Shown here one piece after another: positions 78 through 57,022 of a stretch of DNA of 64,000 nt. The stretch lies in assembly GCF_042242105.1 (NCBI RefSeq), contig NC_092035.1, forward strand, positions 6,034,977 to 6,098,976. Reading direction: 5' to 3'. How positions within the stretch are numbered: position 1 is the first letter of the stretch; every line of letters begins with the position of its first letter. The notes beneath the pieces were generated by a model. The model had not been told where the DNA came from, did not search any database, and was given only the letters and a program-made list of their open reading frames with translations. The stretch comes from Pempheris klunzingeri (taxonomy: Eukaryota; Chordata; Actinopteri; Acropomatiformes; Pempheridae). Both the position numbers and the translations under genes were made by a program.

Positions 78-9797
<9,720 letters not shown>

Positions 9798-14967: not shown

Positions 14968-17900
14968 ATGAGGCAGGCGGTGGAGGCTCAGGTGTTGAAC
15001 CCCCACTGTGAACTCGGAGAACATGGTCAGGAGGGGACACTGTCTTCATTAAACAAACATACTGCTCTCTGTCACAATAACACTAATAATCCACCTGTGT
15101 GTTGCAGGCCTGCGTCAGATCCTGACAGATGTGATTGAGGAGGTGAAGCAGTCGATAGACCAGGACATCGACGGAGCAGAGATCCTCCACAGTCTGCTGA
15201 ACGCCCCCTGGCTGCAGTCGCTGCTCAAGGTCTGAAAACACTCTGTGCTTTGTTCTTAAATGTGTCTCTAAAACTGAACTTATACAATTCAAAGAAATGT
15301 ATTTATTCTATTACTTTTTACAGCTTTTGTTCTGTGGATTGCTTTCTTTCAGTGATGTTTGAAAGCAGAAAACTGTAAATGAAAGACATCAGGGAAAATT
15401 TAGCTCCCAAAAACTTTGCCTTTTTCATCCAAGTCAAGTTTCCGGGAGCTAAAACGTGCAGATTTTATACCTTCACTGAATCATCTTGCACTCAGACCAA
15501 ATACTGCATCTCAAAACAGCATCAAATTGATTGATAATCTATGACAACCTCACAGTATTTAAGGATAGATTTGAGTTATAATCATGTTTTCAGGTTTACG
15601 AGTGTCTTCAGAGGTACCTGAGAGACTCCCCAGCACCAGCTCTGGACTACGCATCAGGACTTTCACTTCAGGTTACACTCAGATTGCTTTTATTAATATT
15701 TTGTTGCCTCCATTTGTTTTGTTGAAGCCTTTTTTAAATTGTGGATGTGTGGTTTCTTGTGTGTGTAGTTGCTGATTGATATCAGAGCGTTGCCGGGCTG
15801 CTCAGAAGAGGCCAAAGAGCTGTACCGCCTCCTGAGACAGCCAAACCTGCAGGTGAGTTTTTTTGGTCTAAACATCTGAAAATAGCAGAGTTTGGCCTGA
15901 TGATGGTGCTTTGAAGAGTCATTTATAATGACTTTGATTGGAAAAGGCACAAAAAGGAGGCAGGAAATCACTTTGCATGAAAAAACACTGTGCTACAGTA
16001 CAATTTTCTGTTGTATTTGTGCCTATTAATGAGGAAACACATAAGATTTATACACTTTTATAGGTGTCTTTGTCATTTTTCCTGTTATTTGGGCTGACAA
16101 ACAGTTTAAAAGGGGCTAAATGAAGACCAAATTAAACTCATATGAAAGTCAGCTTACATTAACCACCATTAACCTGGAGTTGTGCGTTACTTTGACCAGC
16201 AGCGCAGCAGTGTTCAATAAAAAAACCATGTGATCTTCACGTTTTTCAGGCTCTTCTCTCGGCTCATGATTCGGTGGCCCAGAAGGACTATGATCCGGTA
16301 CTGCCACCAATGCCAGACGACCTTCCAGATGACGAGGAAGCCACCCGGATCGTCTGCCTGGTCAAGAACAAACAGCCTCTGGTGAGCTACACAGCTAAAG
16401 TCTCCTCAATACTCTTTTAAAAAGTAAGAATCGTTAGAATATGAAAACTCCAAATGAGGTAATTTTCTCATTTGATACACTTCATTACATAAGCCTGACA
16501 TCTTAGTTGACTCACAAGCCCGTTCAGGCTCTGTATTCAGACACCACCTGACCTGAAAATAAGATCTCATTTTGAAGGGATCACCCTCCCTTGTCATTTT
16601 TAATCCTACTTTGAAAAAGGAGGTTTTGTTGGTCGAGGGAAACGCGTCATGTGTGGAAGTGTGGATCTTTTTACTCTACATAAATACAGCAGATAAAGTT
16701 AGTGGTTGCTTTTCAGATTCAGATTTTTAAAACACATAATTAAGGATTAAACTGATCTTTTCTCTACCTCTTTGAGTCCCCTTCTCTTGTTTCAGATGTC
16801 TGTGAAGGGAGGAAAAAAATGTGAAACAATAGAACAGGTTTTCTGTAGTTTGTGTGGGGATATAATGTACAGTAGATCAGACAAATGCAGGACCCATATG
16901 GTGTAGTTTGGAAATGGATCCCTCCTTTCTAACTCCTTATATTGGTATTGATGGAGGCGCGGAAATATCGAAACTTTTCCACATAAAACCCAAATGATCT
17001 GAGTGGCTGTATACGAGTTGGGATAAGAAGGAAACGGAAAGAAAAAAGTTTGTTTACATTTTCAGTATATGCAGATATTGGTTGGATATTTTAATATGTA
17101 GGGTTTTTTGCCATATATGAATCAAACAGCTGACTGCATCCAACACAGACCAGATGTTTGAATTTTATAATCTCTCATTTGAATAATAATCTGTTAATGC
17201 TTATTTCCTGACAGCATACACCACTGAAAAAGAAAGATTCGCTCTTGTCACATCAGTTACTGAAGAATGCTTAATTCCTGTCTTTGTCTTGTCTTTTTGG
17301 GAATTTTATCCCACATCTCTTACAATAGTAAGTACTGATGTGATGTTGAGGATAAGTGTTCTTATCAATGAAGCTTAAAGTTCTGTTTTTATAGCAGGAA
17401 TTCTGTATTTTACACCTTTCTTCCTTGCAGAGGAAGTTCTCAGTCTCTCGTGCCTGTGTTGAACATTTCCGTCCACCTTTGAGTGACTCTGTTGTCTCAC
17501 AGCCCTGCAACCCCCGGAGAGCTGGGCTCTCGCTGCCCAGAACATCCTCCTTAAGCGTAAAAAGCTCCAGAGGGGGGATCCGCAGTCACTGGGACACCCT
17601 GAGACGTCTGACCCAGCAGAAGCTTCACCGAGGTGCTGCTTTTGGGGTCCAGAGTCCTGGTGCTGGGTGCCGGGATGTCAAGCATTCATCGTTTAGTATT
17701 CGGAGAGGCAGCTACCCGCCAACTGAACCAACAGCAGCGGCTCGGCCGTACTGTCGACCTCACTATACGAGTAACTGTCAGATGTGTTGTAGCAAGCCGG
17801 TGAGCCAGTGCAGAGTTTGTTACACCAACCTGCTCTGGGAGCAAAGTGTGAACCGCTCTGCGCCTGCAGTCTACAGCTCTGTTCTGATTGGTAAGAAATA

Positions 17901-20900
17901 TCTGCTGGTTTTTCATCACCTGTCACCTGTCTCCTTCCATCGCTCATCACAGCTGCTCGTGATTTTTCATGGAGTAATAATGTCTCTTTTTTCATTGGAG
18001 ACAACATCATCGAAGAGCTCGACAGTGGAGATGAAGACGAGTCCGCCACTGCCTCATCCCCGCTTCCCACAGCCCGCCGTTGGACGATGTCTCCCCCGTG
18101 TCTGTCCTACTGCTCCAACGTAGACGGCTACCTCCAGCCAGGCCTGCGTACCAGGCGTCAAAGTCAAAGCCCTCGCGTTCGCACTGCTCCCCCGAGCCCC
18201 ATGCGCCCTCGCCATGTGGTGGATCTGCCCTCGGTGCCCCCCGTGGAGCTCGCCAAGCAGGAGAGCTTGGACGAGCTGAGGATGACAGTGCAGCTGGCCG
18301 CCAGCTCCATGGAGAACAGCACCAAAGACATCAGGCTCCTCGGGGAGAGGATGGCAGCCGCCACTGAACGCATGTCGGAGACGGTGCAGGATAACTCCCA
18401 GGCCCTGCTGCTCCTCACGCAGGTGGTGGACCGGCTGCAGATGCTCCTCGCCGCCACAAAGACTGACATCAACACCCCAAAGCCCTCAGTCGCTGAGCAA
18501 GACAGCACAGCAAAGAAGAGCCAAACTCCAGAGAGCCAAGGGCAACCTCCAGCCATGACACACCAATTCAAATGTTCCTTCCCCTCACTGCTTTCCTCCG
18601 CGCCCTCCTCCAGCTCCCTCAGCAGCTCCGTGGACACTCCCTCCACCTCTCAGGGGTCCGGCTGTCTGCCTGTGTCTTGCGGCGGGTCGCCCCGGGCTCC
18701 CCCGAAAACCAAGAGTGTCCCTTTGCCGCAGAAGAAGCACGTTCACGCTGAGGCTCAAGCGTCCAAGCACATCCCAACCAATGGCCTGCTTGATGAGCCC
18801 AAGAACACCTCCCACGCCGTGAAAGGATGTCATTCAAACCAGCGGAAGAAGAAGAGGAAGAAGACGACATGATAGACGCCGAAGAGAGTCGACAGTGTGG
18901 ACTTCTTGGGTCCTTTGAAGCCGTCTCCACAGATCGGCTGACCTGCAAACACCTGCAGTGGTAGCTGACATTTAATTCGTACTTTTTGTGGTGGTTTTCT
19001 TGGATCATTTCATCCCGTCATATTTCCACACCTGCTTTATTCTCACCTGTGACGTCCGATGTCTTTGGTGAATGAACTTCATTGATATTCATTTGGAGCT
19101 CTGGTTGACATTCATTTGTGTCACCGCTCGCCTTCCATTTCACCCTCAAGTCTTCACATCCTGTCATGGCTTCCATCATTTTATTTGTCTTCATTCATGC
19201 GCGTGCATCTACTCCCCCACATCACTGCAGGTTTATTTACTCTGTGTTTTCATTTTCTCTGTTCTAGGGAGCGACTATAAAGAGAAACGAGATCACAGGG
19301 GAGATTTTTGTCGCTCGGGTGATTCATGGAGGGCTGGCTGATCGAAGTGGTGAGCCTGTTCTCTCAAGGATAATGTTCTCAGTTTACTGTATATTTACAG
19401 TAGTAAAGTTTAAAGTAAAAGTTTAAATACTTTTTTATTTATCTTAACATGTTGGTGATATGATGAGATCTGGACTTTTAATCCAAGCTCAAAGGTAAAT
19501 TTACCAGCATTCAGAGCTTTCAAGCTGGAAAGCTTAATAAGTGGATCTTTCGGCTTTTATTATTTTAATGATCCCAACATGAAACCACCTTCATGCTCAA
19601 ATGTTCTGCTGCTTCCCATTAATTATGTACATTTTTATCTAATTTATACTCTTGATGCTTAATATAAATCATATGATATCATATTTAAGGTAAAAGCTAA
19701 TGTACAAAAGGACTTAATATAAATAGTTATCCCCGCATTATTCTTTAAATTCACAAAATAACCAGGTTTTGGTGTCTTTAGAGACTTTGAGAGAATAGGA
19801 CTTTCACACACTTCAAATTATCTGGGAAAATGTCCATTTGAAAATGTAAATGTAAAAAACCCATTCTTAAGATTTTTGTATTTGTGTGTGTGTTTGTAGG
19901 TCTGCTCCATGCAGGGGACAGGATCTTAGAGGTGAATGGTTTTCCTGTCGATGGGATGGAGCCTGAGCAAGTTATCCAAGTTGTGGTAAGTCGCTGGTTG
20001 CACTTTGTGTACAGAATAAAGTTTTGATTCTATAGAACAAATCACCATACTTAATTTTACTTTTTTTTTTAATCTTTATTCAAGTTTTTAAGTGAAAGCC
20101 GACTACATTTTTAATTTATATACATCCGACTCTCTGTCTTTATAATGAAATGCCACATTACCACAAGCTAATCATAACTCTGTTAAAGTGCAGTAGAGTC
20201 CATCCTCTCATGTCGTGATAAGTCAGGAGCCTTTAAAATGTGCTAATTAACTCATGTTGTTTCTTTACAACCAATCAGCAAGCGAGGTCACAAGGCACCA
20301 TCATGTTTAAAGTTGTCCCCATCACAGAGAGGCCGGTCCACAACCAGACGATGGTAAATCATGACCTTCTCTCCACCAGCTTCATTCTGTTACACACTAA
20401 AGCTGCAGATCCTCATAATAAACTAACTCGTGTGGTGTCAGCTGTACGTGCGGGCCATGGCCGACTACAGCCCCCAGCAGGACCCGACCATCCCCTGCGC
20501 CGACGCCGGCATGAGCTTCCGGAAAGGTGACGTCCTGGAGATCGTGGACCAGACGGACGCTCTCTGGTGGCAGGCCAAGAAGCTGCCCAGCACCACAGCC
20601 TGCGCCGGCCTCATCCCCTCCACCAGCCTGCTGAAACGGTCAGGAGGCTTCACTGATTCATCTTTTTTTACTGGACGGGGCACAGTTAGCTTCTTACAAA
20701 GGTGTCTGTAGGTTTAGCATTATCTCTGCTGACGTTAGACACATAGAGGGTGATTTCTTGTTTGATTAACAACAATCTGTAAAATAACAATTCTGATAAG
20801 AGATTAATCATTTTAGTAACTTATCAAGCAAAAATGTGGGTTTATTTGGGTTGAAGACATTTAAACTACATCACCCTCTGATCTGGGAATTTGTGATTCA

Positions 20901-32146: not shown

Positions 32147-35100
32147 ATGCTGGACTTTGCCATCTTTGCAGTCACGTTTGTCATCATTTTGGTCGGCGCT
32201 GTTCTCTATTTGTACCCGGTATGTAGCTGCAAGTTTGCTGCTAGCTTTAAGTCAATGCTAGCTATTAAACGTTACGGTAGCTCTCGAGACGCCAATTTCC
32301 TCTCCAAAAAGTGTTCATTTGGTTTCCATTTGCTTGAAGGCAAGCGGAAACGTCTCATTTAATACCGGAGATTTTTAAACTAATTGTTTACTGCAATCTG
32401 TTGATCATTTGTCAGCCAACAAACCAAACCAGGTTCAATGAAATGCAACTTTAAGACTTATTAAAGTTAGATGTTTCTAAATGGGTGCTGTTAAGTACGT
32501 CATTTGTATGCCGAATTTGCCAGAAAACCTTTAAAATAAATAATCGTATGACCTTACTTGGTATCTTGCAGTGTATGTTTGCCATTAAGTGAGGAATCAA
32601 TAAATTGCCATATTTTTCAATGAGGTTCCAACCTCAGAGTAACCAACCTGTCAACATATTAGAGGAGACAGTGGATGTATGTGAATGCCAGAACACATAT
32701 CCTTATGGTCGAAATCATATAAATATTGAGATATTTCACAGATATTATATTTCTAATCATGTTTTCAGTCATCCAGAAGGGCCTCTGGCATCCCAGGTCT
32801 CAATCCCACAGATGAGAAGTAAGTTTATATCTTTACTTTCATTAAAGATGGTGTGAAGTTAATATACAAGCAGACAACCAGCCTCTCTGTACACATACTG
32901 CCACTTATAATTAACTTCCTGGACTGTCATATATGTGCAGCATGTTATTAATTATAATTTTGAATAGTTTTCAGGATGTTTTCACTTCAGACAGACTTCC
33001 AAAGTAACTGTCCACGTATGCAGGACAAGTGTGCACATTAAATTCACCACTTTGTGGCTTTCTGCTCTGTGAGGGATGGGAACCTGCAGGACATCGTGAA
33101 CAGAGGCAGTCTGCATGAGTTCCTCGTCAGTCTGCATCAGGAGTTTGGGTCTGTGGCGTCGTTCTGGTTCGGCGGTCGGCCGGTGGTCAGTCTGGGCTCT
33201 GTGGACCAGCTACGGCAACATATCAACCCCAACCACAGCAGTAAGAGCAGCAGCATTCTCCACACTGTTGGGATCTGTATTAGGACCTTATAGAGACCTC
33301 TCCATAGACTTCAATTGTTTTGTTATACACGATTATACAAGATTTTTTTTACTCTTCTCAGCTGACTCTTTTGAGACGATGCTGAAGTCGTTGCTAGGTT
33401 ACCAGTCGGGAATGGGAGGCGGGGCCATGGACGCCTTAATAAGGAAAAAGGTGTATGAGGGTGCCATCAACAACACACTGAAGAACAACTTCCCTCTTGT
33501 GCTCAAGGTTTCCACGACTGATGAAAAGATATTTCCTCGTTCCTCCATTCCACATCCAGGTTTCATAAAAATATACAATGCACCTTCTGTCATTGTTTTC
33601 TTTTACTTAGATGGTGGAGGAGCTGGTGGGAAAGTGGAAGTCATTCCCGGAGGATCAACACATCCCTCTGTGCTCCCACCTGCTGGGCCTGGCCATGAAG
33701 ACCGTCACCCAGCTGGCCCTGGGCGAGAGCTTCATGGACGATACAGAGGTCATCTCCTTCCGCAAGAACCACGATGCGGTGAGACAACAACTCAAACCTC
33801 AAGTCGCTCTTTTGTGTCTTTGGTTCGTGGGGGTTTCAGTTTAAAGATGCCTTACAAACCAGGCACGGCACACGGCCCTTTTCAATTGAAGTTGAAAAGG
33901 GCCGTGTGATTCATGTTTTTCTCTCCTTCTAACTCATGATGGCGCCATCAGATCTGGTCAGAAATCGGGAAAGGCTACTTGGACGGCTCCCTGGAGAAGA
34001 GCTCCAGCAGAAAAGGACATTATGAGAAGGGTGAGTGAGGTTTGCATCATGGTCATTTTTTTCAAGCCTAGTGAGGCTAGTTATTGTCCTGATCTTCATG
34101 TCTCCTCTTCTTCGCCCCCTTCCTCACCTGCTGTGTGTTGACATGTCTGAGCAGTGCTGGGCTGTTCAGCTGTAGAGAAACAGGAGGGAAAGTTTGCAGA
34201 GGCTGAGATGTGATCTCTGTGTGCAGAGGAGGTTGACAGGCAGCCAGAAACCGTCTGAGAACAGATAAATGACCGTGCATAAGCACCGGCTCACTATTAC
34301 CTCCTTAATCAGTGAACAGCCACTGTTTTTGGGGGACTTTTATTGATTTATCTGCCAGTGGTAATGCCACTGAGATTTGGCCCCTGGCCAGAGTTAATAC
34401 TGGATGCAGTGTGAGGAGCTGGAAAGCAAGATGGATGCAGTCTTTTTCACTTCTAACCCCACTTTTGGTGTCAAAATGTAACTGAAGCAAATGACAATGT
34501 CTTTTATTTTTTTATGTTTTTTTTTTTCTTCCTGGGCGTTCAGCTCTGTCAGAGATGGAGTCTGTGCTGCTGTCACTGGCGAAGGAGAGAAAAAGCCAGA
34601 GGAAGCAGACGGTGTTTGTGGACGCTCTACTTCAGTCCAGCCTCACAGAGCGACAGGTGAATACCAATGAAGTCGCCAGTTCTAGTTTAAAACCAGGAGA
34701 CAACTTAAAAGATCTCCACGGCTCCCACAAAAGGCCTGAAAAGTACCTCTGTTTGTTTCAGATCATGGAGGACTGCATGGTTTTCTCTTTGGCTGGATGC
34801 GTCATCACTGCCAACTGTAAGTGACAAACATCAAAACTGCCTGCAAATTATTACATTGTTCTGACTCAGTGGTTGAAAGGAGGGGGAGGTTTTAGTCACA
34901 TATCAGGAGGACGAGAAGAACAGCTGAGAATTTTCTTTGTCAGGACTTATTGTGATATTATTAAGCCATCGATGTGTACATCATGTTGAAATTAAACTTA
35001 AATGGCAGCTAAAGTGTCAGAGAAGAAGAAATCAAATGCTCTTTTTACAGATGAATCCCTGAAGCTTAATTATAAAATGCTGTGTTTCGGCAGTGTGCAT

Positions 35101-36542: not shown

Positions 36543-57022
<20,480 letters not shown>

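Follow-up and report, generated by a model that had tools for sequence, protein, structure and literature searches.

MPP4 is a photoreceptor MAGUK with the domain order L27-L27-PDZ-SH3-GK. A review (PMC7662862) describes its L27 domains as binding Lin-7, PSD-95beta and the calcium pump PMCA. In that account, the L27 homodimer first brings the pump toward the photoreceptor terminal, where the C-terminal half of the scaffold, together with PSD-95beta, then stabilises it at the presynaptic membrane. Mice with only the two L27 domains of MPP4 are summarised there as having strongly reduced synaptic PSD-95 (Aartsen et al. 2006, cited in PMC7662862). Isoforms that lack L27 have been described for several MAGUKs, including Drosophila varicose and Dlg, human MPP6 and PSD-95, and reportedly one isoform of MPP4 itself (PMC2414870). 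Here we analyse a pair of exons, e1 and e2, lying in the intron that separates the L27 from the PDZ exons of mpp4 in the fish Pempheris klunzingeri, within a 64-kb stretch of contig NC_092035.1 (positions 6,034,977 to 6,098,976), hereafter the window (Table 1). New here is a second mpp4 in the same genome, which carries, in the corresponding intron, homologues of both exons with an unchanged splice phase.

The two exons probably represent either an alternative ending of the MPP4 scaffold or a gene nested within mpp4. With moderate confidence we favour the former, in which e1 and e2 form an old, protein-coding alternative 3' end of mpp4 that would encode two L27 domains followed by a coiled-coil tail. 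The gene names mpp4, als2 and tmem237 are those to which we take these loci to belong; Pfam shows L27 and PDZ alone, and on the mpp4 translation without the new exons it finds L27 (E=1.7e-27, in two stretches) and PDZ.

An exon pair of no placeable family

Joined in frame, e1 and e2 give 443 codons followed by a TGA at 18870-18872, and the segments of 460 and 872 nt and the 110-bp GT-AG intron between them have the coordinates and sizes given in a preliminary description of this DNA. As that description also proposed, e1 begins in phase 0 behind a strong acceptor (score 7.13) and the preceding mpp4 exon ends in phase 0, at the donor CTG/GTGAGC (slash at the exon border; score 8.83); all splice-site scores given here come from crude matrices of our own. 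The stop-to-stop frame containing e2 is the longest in the window (325 residues), and that containing e1 is the third longest (242 residues). Of 5,000 second-order Markov resamplings of 17395-17890, 198 contained a frame of 153 codons or more; for 17895-18872, 186 of 5,000 reached 280 codons or more. Since frames this long appear in about 4% of resamplings per segment, the length of the open reading frame alone is not decisive. The GC content of third codon positions is 0.74 in e2 and only 0.56 in e1, and the frame of e2 ranks first of six when scored by mpp4 codon usage. This scoring is rough (508 mpp4 training codons, among them one 34-codon piece from a wrong frame); it is weakly favourable for e2 and uninformative for e1.

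The protein was said to belong to no placeable family, and the searches agree. At E up to 10, neither the whole protein nor three pieces of it nor one alternative-frame tail matched a Pfam-A family, and the whole protein likewise matched no PDB sequence. NCBIfam returned a single bacterial match (E=0.31, 10.9 bits against a cut-off of 100), which does not amount to a family, and neither plasmids, queried with e2 DNA, nor phages, queried with the e2 peptide, provided one. The cysteine cluster described earlier exists as nine cysteines in e1; it does not hold up as a conserved feature, the paralogue lacking the same cysteine spacing. The two short conserved motifs of e1, comparing window and paralogue, are GGI-x-S-x-W-x2-LRRLT and LW-x4-N-[QR]-SAP. 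The basic tail is present in both copies, and a lysine-rich end directly before the stop in each argues for a true C-terminus. Another frame, at 18842-18964 (+), overlaps the lysine-coding end of e2; it is glutamate-rich, open for 40 codons and without a Pfam match.

AlphaFold2, given the e2 peptide alone, predicts one continuous helix, in which 57 residues reach a predicted local distance difference test score (pLDDT) of at least 90. The model is elsewhere nearly all of low confidence (mean pLDDT 58, predicted template modelling score 0.27). The predicted helix coincides with the stretch conserved between the two copies. Two heptad registers are about equally hydrophobic in each copy (0.57/0.57 and 0.62/0.57), which suggests a broad or two-sided hydrophobic face of the kind found in helical bundles and antiparallel pairs. 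Searched against PDB sequences, a profile built from the two helices gave 18 matches at E up to 10, most of them to coiled coils or helical bundles; the best was to a designed antiparallel coiled coil (E=0.0004). We read these matches as a coiled-coil signature and not as kinship.

The second mpp4 copy and constraint between the copies

A six-frame search of the fish's own genome (646 Mb, E up to 10) with the joined protein returned six matches: e1, e2, one paralogue and three weak matches (E 0.06, 0.78 and 3.38). The paralogous match lies on contig C10 at 2694149-2694583 (-), with 44% identity (E 4.9e-17), inside an open frame of 407 residues. The 30 kb surrounding this match place the paralogous exon pair in the corresponding intron of a second mpp4, after the residues VKNNQPL and before a PDZ exon near 2692909. 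The counterpart of e1 was recognised on visual reading and by a tblastn search limited to 11.6 kb (E=6e-4); it ends with a GTAAGA donor in phase 1, and the paralogous e2 begins in phase 1, as in the window. The reciprocal genome search gave five matches, namely the two paralogous exons, e2 of the window (5.1e-17) and two weak ones (4.19 and 5.63). The weak match at E=0.06, on contig C19, was dropped as its frames resemble a metalloproteinase by eye, and the four other weak matches (E 0.8 to 5.6) were dropped as chance. No frameshift or stop, which the preliminary description had named as a sign against a coding unit, was found in the homologous exons at this second locus. We regard the homologous exon pair in the second mpp4 as the decisive evidence for a genuine coding unit.

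The second gene is named mpp4 on the strength of 11 stretches that match MPP4 of the window (47-69% identity) and of a tmem237 copy about 12 kb further on, at C10:2667786; it was set beside the window MPP4 alone. A second als2 copy, expected beside the second mpp4, is not in C10:2707000-2736999 and lies on the same contig at 12.36 Mb. The nearby tmem237 and the als2 copy on the same contig fit an old large-scale duplication, and these copies, together with saturated synonymous sites, suggest that the two blocks date to the teleost whole-genome duplication. Between the stretches of the second mpp4 that match guanylate kinase, C10:2681448-2682785 (-) appears by eye to hold a broken retrotransposon.

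Constraint was assessed from Nei-Gojobori counts, rounded for the Fisher tests. Over the conserved helix (55% identity), differences at codon positions 1, 2 and 3 number 24, 15 and 47, and the nonsynonymous rate (dN) is 0.344, beside 0.346 over 472 aligned MPP4 codons and 0.322 over 134 L27 codons. The proportion of nonsynonymous differences (pN) in the helix is below that of synonymous differences (pS), with pN/pS = 0.36 (Fisher p=6e-10), and the two short motifs of e1 are also constrained (Fisher p=0.0006 and 0.004); the alignment was protein-guided, which lowers pN relative to pS, so that all these ratios lean low. Synonymous differences in the helix are saturated, so a value of dN to the synonymous rate (dS) is not obtainable. 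Given a helix dN like that of MPP4 and saturated synonymous sites, the two copies indicate an old protein on which purifying selection acts, in the helix and the two short motifs at least. The remainder of the protein is only loosely alignable between the copies.

This comparison leaves little room for e1 and e2 being a decaying remnant or a functionless chance frame, which we consider extremely improbable: resampling does yield similar frame lengths in about 4% of trials per segment and e1 has no codon-usage signal against mpp4 codons, but both mpp4 copies preserve an open frame along with the motifs, the splice phase and the C-terminus, and nonsynonymous change in the helix is as slow as in MPP4.

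Alternative mpp4 ending or nested gene

An alternative mpp4 ending is favoured over a nested gene because e1 has no start codon, because the phase 0 is shared, and because no conserved ATG exon was found in the intron ahead of e1. No methionine precedes the first conserved motif of e1 in either copy; further along there is one in e1 of the window and none in e1 of the paralogue. Both copies have a last L27 exon that ends in phase 0, and in the paralogue an AG that gives e1 phase 0 (ATAAAG/AAT) lies shortly past an in-frame stop. The preliminary description had offered an optional ATG exon joined to e1 by a junction from 16837 to 17431. This junction fares badly, with a very poor donor (CAG/GTTTTC, -0.34) and no counterpart found in the paralogue, and the optional exon is probably not used.

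Several observations weigh against an alternative ending. The e1 acceptor of the paralogue is weak (-3.57) and faces competition from an AG in a different phase (-1.35), while the paralogous e2 acceptor scores -4.52; a phase match would arise by chance in about one case in three at each locus. The homology of e1 is modest, and the genome-wide searches linked the two copies by the e2 part only. By mpp4 codon usage, the frame of e1 is fifth of six. Across the full alignment of 371 codons the copies share 124 residues, with dN 0.76 and pN/pS 0.61, and outside helix and motifs pN/pS is about 0.72; the dN/dS comparison foreseen in the preliminary description, made here in part between copies of one genome, speaks for constraint in the helix. 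In the window, neither AATAAA nor ATTAAA follows the stop at 18872 before the PDZ exon is reached, and of 13 hexamers considered, 18873-19400 holds only AATGAA (19071) and TATAAA (19276, inside the PDZ exon). The paralogue has ATTAAA at 2693738 and AATAAA at 2692982.

The chief rival is an independent nested gene that lies within the mpp4 intron on the same strand, is driven by its own promoter and obtains its start codon from a short 5' exon; its product would work without the L27 domains. We hold this to be the less probable account, though a substantial one. The unit has its own stop and its own conserved motifs, and a nested gene would likewise persist in both duplicates. Candidate short ATG exons with a donor score of at least 2 can be written in both upstream introns (Table 1). 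No similarity was found among these candidates, though exons so short could escape such a comparison, and the introns upstream of e1, set copy against copy, gave no convincing similarity: the best tblastx match had E=1.1, and blastn found one match of 32 bp, in inverted orientation (E=0.002). Any intronic 5' exon would be confined to 1,049 bp in the window and 785 bp in the paralogue. The upstream intron is AT-rich and CpG-poor (observed/expected 0.18-0.44), which excludes a CpG-island promoter there. Its 1,049 bp do contain two TAATCC/GGATTA sites (16601 and 16744), presumably CRX-like, against 0.38 expected at the window's rate. The 785 bp upstream of the paralogous e1 contain one such site (C10:2699410). 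The missing AATAAA or ATTAAA after e2 weighs on a nested gene too.

It is also conceivable, and we think very unlikely, that the new segment is a cassette within full-length MPP4, inserted between L27 and PDZ-SH3-GK by way of a putative donor inside e2. The phase 0 of the two flanking mpp4 exons and the lack of a canonical poly(A) signal in the window before the PDZ exon would both suit a cassette. The two copies nonetheless share a similar C-terminus directly before the stop (GC... in both, GC...KKKKKNK-stop in the paralogue). The normal L27-PDZ join, bypassing e1 and e2, reads through in frame.

For the alternative mpp4 ending, we infer from the genomic sequence the splicing to the L27 exons, the polyadenylation before the PDZ exon, and the function. 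Some transcripts would have e1, and not the PDZ exon, joined to the L27 exon that ends at 16381, with e1 in turn spliced to e2; translation would end in e2, and polyadenylation would occur before the PDZ exon. The product would retain both L27 domains, with PDZ-SH3-GK replaced by a mostly disordered tail. In that tail would lie the pair of short conserved motifs, the lysine-rich end and a single long amphipathic helix, which could pair with other helices. The product would bind L27 partners and either self-associate or bind a new partner. As it would be without the PDZ-SH3-GK half, the presynaptic membrane anchor, it may compete with the normal MPP4 complex or re-route it, and it could perform the PMCA recruitment step without the stabilisation step. 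More broadly, we see an even chance that this fish, and probably ray-finned fish generally, use a single MPP4 N-terminus for two scaffolds. One would be the known MAGUK; the other, kept in both duplicates, would combine L27 with a coiled coil, lack PDZ, SH3 and GK, and in photoreceptor terminals compete for or re-route L27 partners, among them Lin-7, PSD-95beta and the calcium pump.

Table 1. Coordinates of the mpp4 exons, the exon pair and candidate start exons, in the window unless marked C10 (second mpp4 copy)
Feature	Coordinates	Strand	Remarks
mpp4 L27 exons	15108-15229, 15594-15671, 15769-15852, 16250-16381	+	AG/GT borders, continuous translation
Host mpp4 intron (L27/PDZ junction)	16382-19267	+	2,886 bp
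Candidate ATG exon	16441-16458		Donor 8.01
Optional ATG exon of the preliminary description	16796-16837	+	Acceptor good (7.72), donor very weak (-0.34)
Candidate ATG exon	16796-16900		Donor 2.32
Exon e1	17431-17890	+	460 nt; acceptor phase 0; donor phase 1, TTG/GTAAGA; homologue C10:2699054-2698748 (-)
Internal GT-AG intron, phase 1	17891-18000	+	110 bp; paralogue: same place and phase, about 3.7 kb
Terminal coding exon e2	18001-18872	+	872 nt, TGA stop; homologue C10:2695011-2693972 (-)
Conserved helix	18240-18461	+	74 codons (residues 234-307 of 443); 41/74 identical to paralogue
Predicted helix	about 18246-18470	+	AlphaFold2 single-sequence model, residues 82-156 of e2 peptide
Lys/Arg-rich C-terminus RKKKRKKTT	18843-18869	+	Directly before stop; paralogue: KKKKKNK-stop
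mpp4 PDZ-region exons	19268-19349, 19900-19985, 20279-20353	+	Pfam PDZ; bypassed in proposed isoform
Candidate ATG exon, paralogue	C10:2699290-2699201		Donor 3.69

Elsewhere in the window, tmem237 comes after mpp4. The second longest stop-to-stop frame, of 269 residues, is at 33100-33906 (+) and has no Pfam match at E up to 0.01. Further downstream, an abi2-like gene is marked by an Abl-interactor HHR domain at 42653-42997 (+) (Pfam E=1.2e-34). A long CA/TG microsatellite at 8465-8974 opens long low-complexity frames on both strands.

Comparison with known MAGUK products

A conserved protein that matches no Pfam family is thus located in an intron of a retinal scaffold gene, and we know of no mammalian counterpart. 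Among the titles and abstract openings listed for papers on mpp4/MPP4 and MAGUK isoforms, this unit is not described, though public fish gene annotations may already predict it. Were it an MPP4 ending, one natural gene would separate PMCA recruitment by L27 from C-terminal anchoring, and fish mpp4 mutants that target the PDZ or GK exons would leave the second product intact. Were it a nested gene, this fish would have a two-member gene family that mpp4 mutants might disturb.

MPP4 itself is one of the closest comparisons, with the same locus and phase and a similar dN for the helix; the L27 exons would be common to both products if the fusion is right. Unlike MPP4, the proposed product would be without PDZ, SH3 and GK and would have a long helix and a lysine-rich tail of no Pfam family. 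The mouse Mpp4 mutant, as the review summarises it, also has an L27-only MPP4 protein, but it is a laboratory truncation without the coiled-coil tail. The L27-lacking MAGUK isoforms, so far as PMC2414870 describes them, are alike in the alternative use of one gene's L27 and PDZ-SH3-GK modules. They drop L27 and retain the rest, whereas the product proposed here would retain the L27 half and gain a new C-terminal half.

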